Assembly: GCF_002162835.1 (NCBI RefSeq)
Contig: NZ_MAAX01000128.1
Coordinates: forward strand, 1-64,000
Reading direction: 5' to 3'
Length of the DNA stretch: 64,000 nt
Source of the DNA: Nonlabens dokdonensis
GTDB taxonomy: Bacteria; Bacteroidota; Bacteroidia; Flavobacteriales; Flavobacteriaceae
Each line of letters opens with the position of its first letter. The stretch's first letter is position 1. Made by a program: the position numbers and the translations under genes. Shown one piece after another: positions 46,595-51,955 of the stretch. Below the pieces are notes generated by a model that was given only the letters and a program-made list of their open reading frames with translations, made no database searches and was not told the DNA's origin.

Positions 46595-46610
46595 CGCTTT
46601 CGCGAAAGTG
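46595..46610. repeat. 16-bp palindrome copy 14 (one mismatch, intergenic)
   Basis: CGCTTTCGCGAAAGTG, one base off consensus; right border of the 7.5-kb repeat-free interval across the SusCD locus. Confidence 0.85.
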
Positions 46611-46702
46611 AAACAGTAATATAAGTAGGTTACAACCGTTACCTTGATACGAGAATTTTAATACTATTATTTGCACTAACAGTTCCTTTATTAGCAGCTG
46701 GC

Positions 46703-47413
46703 ATGACAGAAATCAAAACAATCCATGTTTATGTGGCTTTATGCGATAATGCTAATCAAGGAATAGCTCCAGTACCTGAAAAACTAGGTAATGGTCAGAA
46801 TCCTATTTATAATTTATATTGGGGAGCAGGTTATGGGGTAAAAACATACTTTCATAACAGTAATGACTGGAATGTTATTAAAGTTAGTAAAAATGTGGAT
46901 TTACTAATCTTAGAACGCATTCTATATAAACATAAGACCAGTAACACCTATATGCTAGCCGATGCATATGATGGGGCACAGATTGCGCAAACTACCATAG
47001 ATTTTCTAGAAGCGAGTGCAGGCCGCAATGGGTTTCAAATAGATTATGATGGTGAGCTACTCTGTTTTGGTGGAGATGCAAATTTGCTAAGCTATATAGG
47101 TCATAACGCTTTAATGAATTTTGAAGTTACTGGTGCATTTACTCCAGCTTCAACTAACAAAATAGAAACTATTATTCTAGCGTGCTACAGCAAGTACTAT
47201 TTTTCTAAAAAGCTCAAAGAAACTGGAGCTTATCCTCTGTTATGGACATCACATCTCATGGCTCCAGAAGCATATACACTTAAATATGCAATAGATGGGT
47301 GGATTAAAAAAGAAGATAATTATGCTGTGGCAGAGCGAGCAGCACAAGCCTATCATCAATATCAAGGTTGCCGTATAAATACAGCTAGAGAATTACTTGT
47401 CACAGGATTTTAA
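46703..47413 (+). CDS. Exported hypothetical protein with a lost start codon upstream
   Basis: The first ATG gives a 236-residue protein beginning MTEIKTIHVYVALCDNANQGIAPVPEKLG. In the same frame just upstream (46649-46702) the DNA reads RILILLFALTVPLLAAG, a textbook signal peptide, but the codon before it is ACG instead of ATG. No ATG, GTG or TTG in that frame precedes it before a stop at 46622. The gene therefore either starts at a non-standard ACG, has lost its start by one mutation, or now makes a cytosolic protein. The core (LYWGAGYGVKTYF; DGELLCFGGDANLLSYIGHNALMNF) seems a conserved but unnamed family. No catalytic motif known. Confidence 0.75.
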   Translation: MTEIKTIHVYVALCDNANQGIAPVPEKLGNGQNPIYNLYWGAGYGVKTYFHNSNDWNVIKVSKNVDLLILERILYKHKTSNTYMLADAYDGAQIAQTTIDFLEASAGRNGFQIDYDGELLCFGGDANLLSYIGHNALMNFEVTGAFTPASTNKIETIILACYSKYYFSKKLKETGAYPLLWTSHLMAPEAYTLKYAIDGWIKKEDNYAVAERAAQAYHQYQGCRINTARELLVTGF

Positions 47414-47499: not shown

Positions 47500-49107
47500 A
47501 TGAGTTTTAAAGAGCAAAAGCAATTTATTTATGCATTTACCATCATCGCTGCTGGCAGTATATTGTTCTTTATAAGCAAGCCCTACTTACCTAATAAAAT
47601 TTTCACCAAACAACTAAGCGCAAATAATATCATAGTAGACAGTCTCATGCTAGAAGCTATAGACATTGAAGAGGTTGAAGAAGAAAAGGAAGTAGTTCTA
47701 CAAGAAACACTAAATAAAGATAGCATTCATAAAACATCAGAAATTGATAAAACTATTACTCCTGATGATGAAAATAAAATTAAAACGGCCCATACCCATC
47801 CATTTTCATTTATAGACATAGGTAGTTTCAACCTAGATCTAACTCATGAAGTAGACTCGTTAGGAAAATACATCTTACCTAAACCTAAAAAACTTACCTC
47901 ATATAGCGGTAAAGAAAATCTTAAACACTTTTTTGAAAAGCTCTATGAACTAGAAAAATCTACAGAAGGTAATGTGCGTATTGCTTATTACGGCGACTCG
48001 ATGATTGATGGAGATTTAATAGTCCAAGATTTTAGGAGTGCGTTACAAACAAGATTTGGTGGTAGAGGTGTTGGTTTTGTACCCATAACTTCAGAGAGTG
48101 CACGATCTCGTTACTCGATAAAGCATTACACTAGCGGCAACTGGAACACTAAGAATTTTATGAAAGGTCGTGCAGACAGTATTCCTTATGGCATTAATGG
48201 AGCAGTTCATTTTTCTCAAGATTCTACAGCTGGAATCAAATTTTTAGCCAGTGGTATTAAAAACTCATATAATCTTAACTCGCCAAGGCTGTATTACGGT
48301 AAGGGAAATCCTAATGGTGTAATTCAAATTAAAATTGATAAGGACAGTATAAAGCAAACTATAAAGTTAAATGGAACAAGAAGTCTCAACACAGCTACAC
48401 TTACAAATAAAGATATAAAGAAAATCAAATTGGAATTTACTCAATCACAAGGCCTTCCTATTTATGGTGTTGATTTTTCTAACAATTCAGGAGTACATGT
48501 AGATGGGTTTTCTAAGCGCGGTAACTCTGGACTACCATTAAGCCTGCTTCATACTGCGCAAATGAAAGAATTTGATAAGACATTGGCTTACGACCTCATT
48601 ATATTACAATTCGGTGCAAATGTGCTCACAAGAAAATCTAAAAATTACACTTGGTATTCTAATCGCATGACCAAAGTGGTGGAACACTTAAAAGCTTCTT
48701 TTCCAGAAGCAGACATTCTTATTCTAGGTACTGCAGATAGAGGTACAAAAATGGAAAACCTTATAAAAACAGACAGTGGAGTCGTAAAATTATTGCGATC
48801 TCAACAAATTTATGCAGCAAACACTAACTCTGCTTTCATGAGCCTATTTCACCTTATGGGCGGTGCAAATACAGCACAAGTATGGAACGCACATAAATTC
48901 ATGAATAATGACTACACACATTTTAGTCCTCGAGGTTCGCAAAAAATAGGACGCATGATTTATAGAGATTTGATGGATGATTATGACGCTTTCGCGAAAG
49001 CGAGATCACAACAAAAAGAAGAAATAGAGCAGAATTTAAAAGAGGAACTTGCAGCACTACCAGTCAGCGATAGTCTAAAGGTCAAAAACGACAGCTTAAA
49101 AAATTAA
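47500..49107 (+). CDS. SGNH/GDSL-hydrolase-fold protein, membrane anchored
   Basis: A 535-residue protein with an N-terminal anchor (FIYAFTIIAAGSILFFISKPYL), an acidic, glutamate-rich linker (about 45-110) and an SGNH hydrolase domain. Block I is IAYYGDSMIDGDLIVQDFR with the catalytic Ser. Other blocks include LIILQFGANVL and the C-terminal DYTHFSPRGSQKIG, with the Asp-x-x-His pair. Codons 497-501 (AFAKA) are a palindrome copy. With the next two genes it forms a likely O-acylation cassette; this member would move or remove acyl groups on a periplasmic polymer. Confidence 0.88.
   Translation: MSFKEQKQFIYAFTIIAAGSILFFISKPYLPNKIFTKQLSANNIIVDSLMLEAIDIEEVEEEKEVVLQETLNKDSIHKTSEIDKTITPDDENKIKTAHTHPFSFIDIGSFNLDLTHEVDSLGKYILPKPKKLTSYSGKENLKHFFEKLYELEKSTEGNVRIAYYGDSMIDGDLIVQDFRSALQTRFGGRGVGFVPITSESARSRYSIKHYTSGNWNTKNFMKGRADSIPYGINGAVHFSQDSTAGIKFLASGIKNSYNLNSPRLYYGKGNPNGVIQIKIDKDSIKQTIKLNGTRSLNTATLTNKDIKKIKLEFTQSQGLPIYGVDFSNNSGVHVDGFSKRGNSGLPLSLLHTAQMKEFDKTLAYDLIILQFGANVLTRKSKNYTWYSNRMTKVVEHLKASFPEADILILGTADRGTKMENLIKTDSGVVKLLRSQQIYAANTNSAFMSLFHLMGGANTAQVWNAHKFMNNDYTHFSPRGSQKIGRMIYRDLMDDYDAFAKARSQQKEEIEQNLKEELAALPVSDSLKVKNDSLKN
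48987..49002. repeat. 16-bp palindrome copy 15 (inside the SGNH gene)
   Basis: Exact CGCTTTCGCGAAAGCG, followed by AGATC; plus-strand reading AFAKA close to the C-terminus. Confidence 0.95.
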
Positions 49108-49115
49108 AACCATTC

Positions 49116-50492
49116 ATGATCAAAAGTTTTTTTATCCTTCTCATAAGCTCAATGACTACAGTTGCCTTTACGCAAGAAATTGCCGACCTACAAATCAACC
49201 CTTTGCTTGTAGATAGTAACTTTCAAGTTATCAAAAACGCCCAAGTTCTTGATGATTTTTATAAAAAAGCTGAAGAACTAGAAAGTGGTACCAGAGAAAA
49301 GTTAACTATAGTTCAAATAGGCGATTCTCATGTTCAAGGACCTTATTTTCCACAGTACATCAGACAAGGATTACAATCTAAATTTGGAAATGCAGGACGC
49401 GGCTTTGTTTTTCCCTATCGAGTTGCAGAAACTAATGGCGCAATTGACGTAAAATTTAAAACCAACAGCGAGTGGAAAGCGGTGCGTAATGTGAAAAGTG
49501 ATGGCAGCGATGACGTAGGCTTAAGTGGTATCAATCTAGAAACTACAGATACTAATTTCATATTAGAAATGAATTTAAGCGATTCATTAGAACCGGTTAA
49601 AGAAATACAAATCATATCGCAACATCCAGAACGCTTTAAAATTTGCACCAGCGACCAACCTCATCTTTTAGAACAAGTAACTGCAACTAAAACCTATAAA
49701 ATCAAGAGCGGTGATTATTTAGGTAAAATAGCGAGTAAATTTAATACGACGGTAAAGGCTATTCAACGAGCTAACGGTATGAAAAATACTCGCCTCAACG
49801 CAGGACAGTCTATTAAAATACCTACAGACGCATCTGAAAGTAAAAAAATAAACGATGAGGCGTTTACTAAGCTATCTACTAAAGATGGTACCACTTATCA
49901 AATTCCTGCTGGAACTACAAAATTGTATATAAAAGCTCGTGAAAAAGCGTCAAAGTATGTTTTAGACGGTTTACTCTTGAATACTGGCAAAAAAGGAATT
50001 CAATTTCACGCTATAGGAGTAAATGGAACCAAATTTAGTGACTACAATAAGTTTCCTCGATTTTTTGATCAGCTTGCTTCTTTAAATCCAGATCTTATCA
50101 TCATTTCGTTAGGTACCAATGAAAGTTTCTATGATAATTATACAGAGCAACAGCTTAAGAAAGACATGGATGTTTTTAATCGCGAGATGATCAAACGAGC
50201 TATGACAGGAAGCGTGTTGTTAACTTCTCCACCGCCATCGATGAAAAACCGCAAAAACATCAATTCTACAGCTACAGTTTATGCTTATGAAATGGGAGTT
50301 TTTGCAAATTTAAATTCGTGGGCATTTTATGACCTTCATGCTGTTTCTAAAACCAGCGCAGCAATGCCAGACTGGTACGCTGCAAAATTGACTTCTAGAG
50401 ACAAAATTCATTTTCTAGAAAAAGGCTATCAGTTACAAGCTCAATTGCTCTTGGAATCTTTACTTAACTCTTACAACGATTATAAAGAATGA
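49116..50492 (+). CDS. SGNH/GDSL hydrolase with an inserted LysM domain
   Basis: A 458-residue exported protein (MIKSFFILLISSMTTVAFTQ). Block I is VQIGDSHVQGPYFPQYIRQG (about 65-85), block III is IISLGTNESFYDN, and the catalytic Asp/His lie in DKIHFLEKGYQLQAQ. Between the first and later blocks a LysM unit is inserted (about 190-235: TYKIKSGDYLGKIASKFNT to NAGQSIKIP), which binds N-acetylglucosamine polymers such as peptidoglycan. The placement points to an O-acetyltransferase or esterase acting on the cell wall. It is 8 bases from the preceding SGNH gene and overlaps the MBOAT gene by 4 bases. Confidence 0.9.
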   Translation: MIKSFFILLISSMTTVAFTQEIADLQINPLLVDSNFQVIKNAQVLDDFYKKAEELESGTREKLTIVQIGDSHVQGPYFPQYIRQGLQSKFGNAGRGFVFPYRVAETNGAIDVKFKTNSEWKAVRNVKSDGSDDVGLSGINLETTDTNFILEMNLSDSLEPVKEIQIISQHPERFKICTSDQPHLLEQVTATKTYKIKSGDYLGKIASKFNTTVKAIQRANGMKNTRLNAGQSIKIPTDASESKKINDEAFTKLSTKDGTTYQIPAGTTKLYIKAREKASKYVLDGLLLNTGKKGIQFHAIGVNGTKFSDYNKFPRFFDQLASLNPDLIIISLGTNESFYDNYTEQQLKKDMDVFNREMIKRAMTGSVLLTSPPPSMKNRKNINSTATVYAYEMGVFANLNSWAFYDLHAVSKTSAAMPDWYAAKLTSRDKIHFLEKGYQLQAQLLLESLLNSYNDYKE

Positions 50493-51955
50493 TGGAATGG
50501 AATGTAATATGGGACTGGCTCAGTTATGATCCACAAAAACCTCTACTGTTTAACAGTGAGGCTTTTTTGTATCTGTTTTTGGGCTTTTTCTTTATTTATA
50601 TTTTATTGAAAGATGTATGCAGGTTGCGCATTCTTTATGTCATCGCTTTCTCTTTGTTTTTTTATTATAAGTGCAGTGGTATCTACTTTATATTACTCAT
50701 ACTCTCTTCTTTTGTAGATTTTTACATCTCAGATTTAATTTACAAGAGTCAAAAAACGGTCACTAGAAAATGGTTACTCGTTTTATCTTGTGTCATCAAT
50801 CTAGGTGTCCTTGCTTATTTTAAATACACCGGTTTTCTAACTGAAAACTTCAACGCTCTCTTCTCAGGTGACCTAAGTTTTGACACGATCTTTTTACCTA
50901 TAGGAATCTCTTTCTACACCTTCCAGACCATGTCATATACGATAGATATTTATAGAAGAGAATTAGAGCCTGCTAGAAATGTATGGGATTTTATGTTTTT
51001 TGTTTCCTTCTTCCCACAATTAGTTGCTGGTCCTATTGTAAGAGCAAAAGACTTCATTCCGCAGATCTATGAAAAACTACACCTCACAAAAAAAGAATTG
51101 AGTTATGCTTTTTACCTCATCATAGGCGGATTGATTAAAAAAGCCGTGATATCAGATTACATAAGCGTCAATTTTGTAGATCGAGTTTTTAATTTCCCAG
51201 ATAACTACACTGCTTTTGAGAATTTGCTTGCCGTTTATGGTTATACATTACAAATTTATTGCGATTTCTCCGGTTATTCAGATATCGCAATTGGACTAGC
51301 GTTACTACTCGGCTTTCAGTTACCACCTAACTTTAGAACGCCCTACCAAAGCACTAGCGTCACAGAATTCTGGCGCAGGTGGCACATCTCGCTATCGGGC
51401 TGGCTGCGTGATTACCTATATATTTCTATGGGTGGTAATCGCAAAGGAAAACTGCGCACTTACTTTAATCTTTTTATGACCATGTTATTAGGTGGTTTGT
51501 GGCACGGTGCATCATGGAAGTTTGTTCTTTGGGGCGCGATGCATGGAAGTGTTCTTGCCATAGAAAAAGCTTTTAGAATTCCCAAACTAACCAATAAGGA
51601 TGTTGCTTTAAAACTCATGGCTGGAATTCTAACTTTTCATTTTGTCGCATTTTGTTGGATATTTTTTAGAGCTTCAGATTTTGCTAATGCTTTGAATGTC
51701 ATTGATAATATCGGTATGCTAGAATGGAGCCCGCAAAATTGGTGGAGCGTCATTGCTGGATATCAAAATGTGGCCATCGTAATGCTCATAGGCTTTTTAT
51801 GGCATTTTATACCACAAAATTGGCAAGATCAACAGCTCTTATCTTTTCATAGAATCCCAGTTGTAGGCAAGGTGGTTCTTTTTGCTGTCACTATTTGGAT
51901 TATCAGTGCAACGGCTAGTAGCGAGGTACAACCGTTTATATATTTTCAGTTTTAA
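50489..51955 (+). CDS. MBOAT-family O-acyltransferase
   Basis: A 488-residue polytopic inner membrane protein of the AlgI/PatA/DltB-type MBOAT family. Seen: IFLPIGISFYTFQTMSYTIDIYR, FPQLVAGPIVRAKDFIPQ, DFSGYSDIAIGLALLLGF, FWRRWHISLSGWLRDYLYISMGGN, and the catalytic histidine segment LLGGLWHGASWKFVLWGAMHG. It would pass acetyl groups from cytosolic acetyl-CoA across the membrane, to be placed on a glycan by the SGNH partners. The ATG overlaps the stop of the LysM-SGNH gene (ATGA), so they are translationally coupled. Confidence 0.93.
   Translation: MMEWNVIWDWLSYDPQKPLLFNSEAFLYLFLGFFFIYILLKDVCRLRILYVIAFSLFFYYKCSGIYFILLILSSFVDFYISDLIYKSQKTVTRKWLLVLSCVINLGVLAYFKYTGFLTENFNALFSGDLSFDTIFLPIGISFYTFQTMSYTIDIYRRELEPARNVWDFMFFVSFFPQLVAGPIVRAKDFIPQIYEKLHLTKKELSYAFYLIIGGLIKKAVISDYISVNFVDRVFNFPDNYTAFENLLAVYGYTLQIYCDFSGYSDIAIGLALLLGFQLPPNFRTPYQSTSVTEFWRRWHISLSGWLRDYLYISMGGNRKGKLRTYFNLFMTMLLGGLWHGASWKFVLWGAMHGSVLAIEKAFRIPKLTNKDVALKLMAGILTFHFVAFCWIFFRASDFANALNVIDNIGMLEWSPQNWWSVIAGYQNVAIVMLIGFLWHFIPQNWQDQQLLSFHRIPVVGKVVLFAVTIWIISATASSEVQPFIYFQF

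Follow-up and report, generated by a model that had tools for sequence, protein, structure and literature searches.

In bacterial start-loss pseudogenes, one substitution removes the canonical start codon of a gene that is dispensable in relatives, and the promoter and the downstream frame are kept. Functional ACG starts are rare and occur mainly in organelles, viruses, and eukaryotes. In a leadered Escherichia coli reporter, ACG yields 0.1 to 1.5% of ATG (PMC6925171), and leaderless mRNAs in E. coli appear to require AUG, according to the statement in PMC5622118 that cites Van Etten and Janssen 1998. In the transcriptome of Flavobacterium psychrophilum, the sigma-A box TAnnTTTG spans -12 to -5, and SM6, an ECF-sigma motif, is described as a CGT box of the -10 region (PMC9723704). 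In Flavobacterium johnsoniae, A residues at -3 and -6 favor initiation (PMC6847099).

Here, we analyze a gene of Nonlabens dokdonensis in a window of 64,000 nucleotides (the whole stretch of contig NZ_MAAX01000128.1 that was studied), in which ACG stands in the start position. The gene has this in common with functional ACG starts, but no compensating feature is seen. As in start-loss pseudogenes, a canonical start occupies this codon in the orthologs, and no in-frame canonical start in the window restores the full product; in contrast to such pseudogenes, the gene carries no further disabling change, and its loss of function would follow from the start codon. We consider it probable that a dispensable gene has recently lost its start codon while its frame is still intact; ordinary biology, namely, a natural start-loss mutation at the onset of decay, is the most likely account.

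The ACG codon aligns with the start codons of orthologs

The reading frame closes with a stop at 47411-47413, and the ACG is in frame with both the ATG at 46703 and the TAA at 46622-46624. From this TAA, the codons run GTA GGT TAC AAC CGT TAC CTT GAT ACG; after the ACG, they run AGA ATT TTA ATA CTA TTA TTT GCA CTA ACA GTT CCT TTA TTA GCA GCT GGC, followed by the ATG at 46703. Reading the bases codon by codon, we found no ATG, GTG, or TTG in frame between the stop at 46622 and position 46703, and the earlier note's description of the site, an ACG at 46649 with a good signal peptide between it and the first canonical start, was confirmed. The features are collected in Table 1.

Table 1. Positions of features in the window
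Feature	Position	Strand	Observation
CGCTTTCGCGAAAGCG, exact copies (16)	2002, 5513, 9534, 12654, 15246, 17278, 22019, 25170, 28050, 36215, 39127, 48987, 51993, 55245, 59003, 61249		
CGCTTTCGCGAAAGCG, one-mismatch copies (3)	29951, 31935, 46595		
TAATAT, candidate -35 element	46617..46622	+	A 19 bases before CGTT in 16/17 copies and 16 bases before in 14/17
In-frame TAA stop 5' of ACG	46622..46624	+	Direct reading of the bases
CGTT, ECF-type -10 box, 12 bases 5' of the start codon	46637..46640	+	CGTT at -12/-13 in 17/28 copies
TACCTTGA, box named in the earlier note, probably not a promoter	46640..46647	+	Geometry of PMC9723704
ACG where the start codon is expected	46649..46651	+	Orthologs: ATG 26/27, GTG 1/27
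Signal peptide TRILILLFALTVPLLAAG	46649..46702	+	Similar-length hydrophobic N-termini in all orthologs; recognized from sequence, no predictor
Coding frame, uncharacterized, putatively exported protein	46649..47413	+	254 codons counted from ACG, TAA stop
ATG, earliest canonical start codon, near expected cleavage point, not conserved	46703..46705	+	Aligns to T19 of nearest ortholog

We compared the start position across 27 full-length orthologs; where an ortholog offered more than one in-frame start candidate, a simple score that combined ATG, nearby Lys/Arg, and hydrophobicity decided among them. Every ortholog start aligned with the window ACG, with ATG in all cases except one GTG, and each was followed by a signal peptide. 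The nearest ortholog, in the sister genome G304 (73% identity), has its ATG exactly there, reading ATG AAA ATA CTT where the window reads ACG AGA ATT TTA. It also has the same gene neighbors, SusC/SusD on one side and GDSL, GDSL, and MBOAT-type genes on the other; the GDSL neighbors were assigned by family search, and the SusC/SusD and MBOAT labels are those that we presume from the type of sequence. Because the orthologs carry ATG at the ACG codon, they show the upstream segment to be the real N-terminus of the predicted protein, with one T-to-C change separating an ordinary start from ACG. An arrangement in which the orthologs start at the equivalent of 46703 and have no hydrophobic segment is excluded by the same alignment. 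Automatic gene calling would shorten the protein to a cytosolic form, masking the start codon event.

Translation from the ATG at 46703 into a functional cytosolic protein of 236 amino acids deserves consideration, since this is the earliest AUG on the predicted mRNA and lies in frame near the mature N-terminus. However, the ATG corresponds to T19 of the G304 protein, Met is found at that position in no ortholog, and the codon has no A at -3 and -6, the context favorable in F. johnsoniae (PMC6847099). Cytosolic use would also be a new function, since export appears to be the rule in all relatives. We regard this outcome as highly unlikely.

The protein belongs to an uncharacterized Flavobacteriaceae family, one member of which (L028) is from an uncultured Winogradskyella. 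The family was found in 30 of 400 sampled Flavobacteriaceae genomes, one of them marginal (E = 6.5e-4), and in 5 of 23 genomes of the genus; a search of genome contigs added one further ortholog and found no second strain of the species. Aligned orthologs are 251 to 262 amino acids long, M1 is nearly invariant, and 49 columns are invariant across the 28 full-length copies (window copy included). Since a hydrophobic N-terminus of similar length is present in every full-length copy, the family is presumably exported. Searches of Pfam and NCBIfam gave chance-level matches and no family covering the protein, and a search of solved structures likewise gave matches at chance level only. Invariant GH and AC residues prompted us to consider kinship with caspases or CHAT proteases, but profile comparison gave no support (hhalign probabilities of 0.5% against Peptidase_C14 and 0.15% against CHAT); a structure model built from two sequences only had a mean pLDDT of 40, unusable for judging a caspase fold.

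A conserved putative promoter with predicted leaderless spacing

The copies with CGTT at -12/-13 include those of the window and G304, and their number exceeds a background of 0.6% per position further upstream (binomial probability of about 3e-26, with sequence relatedness ignored). The A-rich element upstream of CGTT is conserved, and the broken copies in G010 and G139 also carry CGTT. In G304 generally, CGTT at -12/-13 is not enriched (6 genes compared with about 5 expected), so this placement is specific to the gene family. As in the SM6 promoters of F. psychrophilum, which belong to an ECF sigma factor (PMC9723704), a CGT box that differs from TAnnTTTG is conserved in the putative -10 region, at a fixed distance and with an upstream element, and the start of transcription is predicted here from the spacing. 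In contrast to the SM6 promoters, the window element is recognized by its conservation, and its spacing leaves no leader. A two-part ECF-like promoter that has CGTT 12 to 13 bases ahead of the start is conserved across genera, for example at L025, L026, L004, and L030, suggesting that the uncharacterized family could be a leaderless member of an ECF-sigma regulon.

In G304, TAnnTTTG shows a sharp maximum at a distance of exactly 12 bases ahead of start codons (27 compared with 0.9 expected), which marks a leaderless gene class. Because CGTT lies at -12, in the same geometry as in the TAnnTTTG genes, the mRNA of the window gene is predicted to be leaderless, and its promoter appears intact. The gene thus shares with leaderless Bacteroidota mRNAs a promoter box that precedes the start codon by 12 bases, but that codon is ACG. 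The earlier note had described TACCTTGA as one T short of the -7 consensus; this box is a poor promoter candidate, since transcription from it would, by the published geometry, begin at about 46652 and thus downstream of the ACG. The CGTT that overlaps it is the element that is conserved. Folding of the initial 100 nt of the predicted mRNA was no stronger than that of shuffled sequences (z = 0.19).

Gene loss and selection in the genus

Intact copies in the genus are present in G304, G311, and G320. The copy in G010 (L023) keeps its ATG and carries a TGA at an invariant Trp (W58) together with a frameshift, making it an independent pseudogene. G309 and G310 keep the SusC/SusD and GDSL neighbors, but between these we detected no remnant of the gene; in G244, the gene is absent between the sdh genes and GDSL. 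Outside the genus, the G139 copy is frameshifted, and G226 and G080 match at the C-terminal part only. The genus thus shows the gene to be dispensable, since its members have an intact, a broken, or no copy, and the copies fit a decay series in which that of the window would represent an early stage. Downstream of the gene, at 47500-51955, GDSL, LysM-GDSL, and membrane acyltransferase-type genes lie in a row that resembles an O-acetylation cluster, and this cluster is retained in the genus independently of the window gene.

Between the window gene and its G304 ortholog, dN is 0.148 and dS is 1.68. With synonymous sites near saturation, a codon model gave an omega of 0.089 on the window branch and 0.041 elsewhere, a difference that is not significant (p = 0.14), and rejected an omega of 1 over the whole window branch (p = 0.017). 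Unique replacements are slightly accelerated in the window lineage (17 compared with 9). The 73% identity ranks 7 among the least conserved of 262 ortholog pairs (median, 94%), and the family evolves fast everywhere. This pattern fits constraint over most of the branch followed by recent loss, and fits continued function as well; an open frame and rejection of an omega of 1 are as expected for a very recent loss or continued use alike.

Assembly quality and use of ACG as a start codon

We surveyed start codons by setting ORFs from 1.2 Mb of G304 against 0.89 Mb of the genome to which the window belongs. The start could be aligned in 248 ortholog pairs, and in 233 of these the codon facing it is ATG, TTG, or GTG. 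The remaining pairs, the window gene set aside, are of two kinds: either a canonical start is found nearby, the longest ORF in G304 having been begun a few codons too early, or the G304 ORF has an N-terminal stretch that appears spurious (o566, o659, and o393). The window gene is therefore the sole one with a lost canonical start. Across the 262 ortholog pairs and the fragmented ones, a single frameshift was detected, at most 175 bases from a contig end. These counts make a general use of ACG starts unlikely, and likewise an assembly of poor quality.

The same data bear on a consensus or assembly error, in which the true base would give ATG. The assembly is a draft of 214 contigs and 93% completeness, which leaves room for such an error. 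However, the site lies in the interior of a 78.6-kb contig, frameshifts are as scarce as noted above, and decay in relatives makes a real loss plausible; we consider an error quite unlikely.

Could the ACG be a working start of low efficiency, perhaps one that tunes the level of the exported protein? Its signal peptide, frame, and promoter are intact, and neutral evolution over the window branch was rejected. On the other hand, no second ACG start was detected among the 248 pairs, none of the 27 orthologs uses one, the gene has been lost repeatedly in the genus, initiation at ACG in E. coli is very weak, and AUG appears to be a requirement of leaderless mRNAs. We infer that the need for AUG and the weakness of ACG would carry over from E. 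coli to the window organism. A working ACG is thus unlikely, and its more specific form, in which a bacterium that lacks Shine-Dalgarno sequences genuinely begins translation at the 5'-terminal ACG of a leaderless mRNA and obtains a low, tuned dose of exported protein, is very improbable. The earlier note had weighed ACG initiation against silencing or redirection to the cytosol by one mutation: the single T-to-C change from ATG stands, ACG initiation gains no support, and redirection is conceivable but weak. The gene nonetheless offers a natural test of ACG initiation on a predicted leaderless Bacteroidota mRNA.

Proposed course of start codon loss

For the preferred reading, recent loss of the start codon, we propose the following course. 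One recent T-to-C transition would have turned ATG into ACG, leaving the promoter, signal peptide, and coding frame intact. Transcription would start from the ECF-type promoter (TAATAT and CGTT) at 46649 or no more than a few bases from it; from the spacing, we infer leaderless transcription, and the mRNA would be leaderless or nearly so. If, as the literature implies, ribosomes need a 5' AUG on such an mRNA, its loss would leave almost no translation of the exported protein. A fraction of the ribosomes may use the AUG at 46703, about 54 nt into the mRNA, and make a mature-length cytosolic protein without a signal peptide. Because the gene is intact, broken, or absent across the genus, the window copy probably represents the initial stage of loss. 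It would provide a clean early case of gene loss, with one base altered and the rest in place, and relatives that display intact, broken, and erased stages.

A recurrent palindrome

The 16-bp perfect palindrome CGCTTTCGCGAAAGCG recurs about every 4 to 5 kb in the window, inside and between genes, where shuffled sequences lead one to expect none. G304 has 250 copies in 1.2 Mb, and their spacing is more even than chance would give, with 3 gaps of less than 1 kb compared with 47 expected. The palindrome was present in 8 of 8 congener loci checked and in 0 of 4 loci from other genera, and its sequence had no match in the literature searched. Its even spacing and near-perfect conservation merit separate study. 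Just 5' of the ACG gene, at 46595-46610, the palindrome is off by one base (CGCTTTCGCGAAAGTG), and at the orthologous place in G304, it is perfect.
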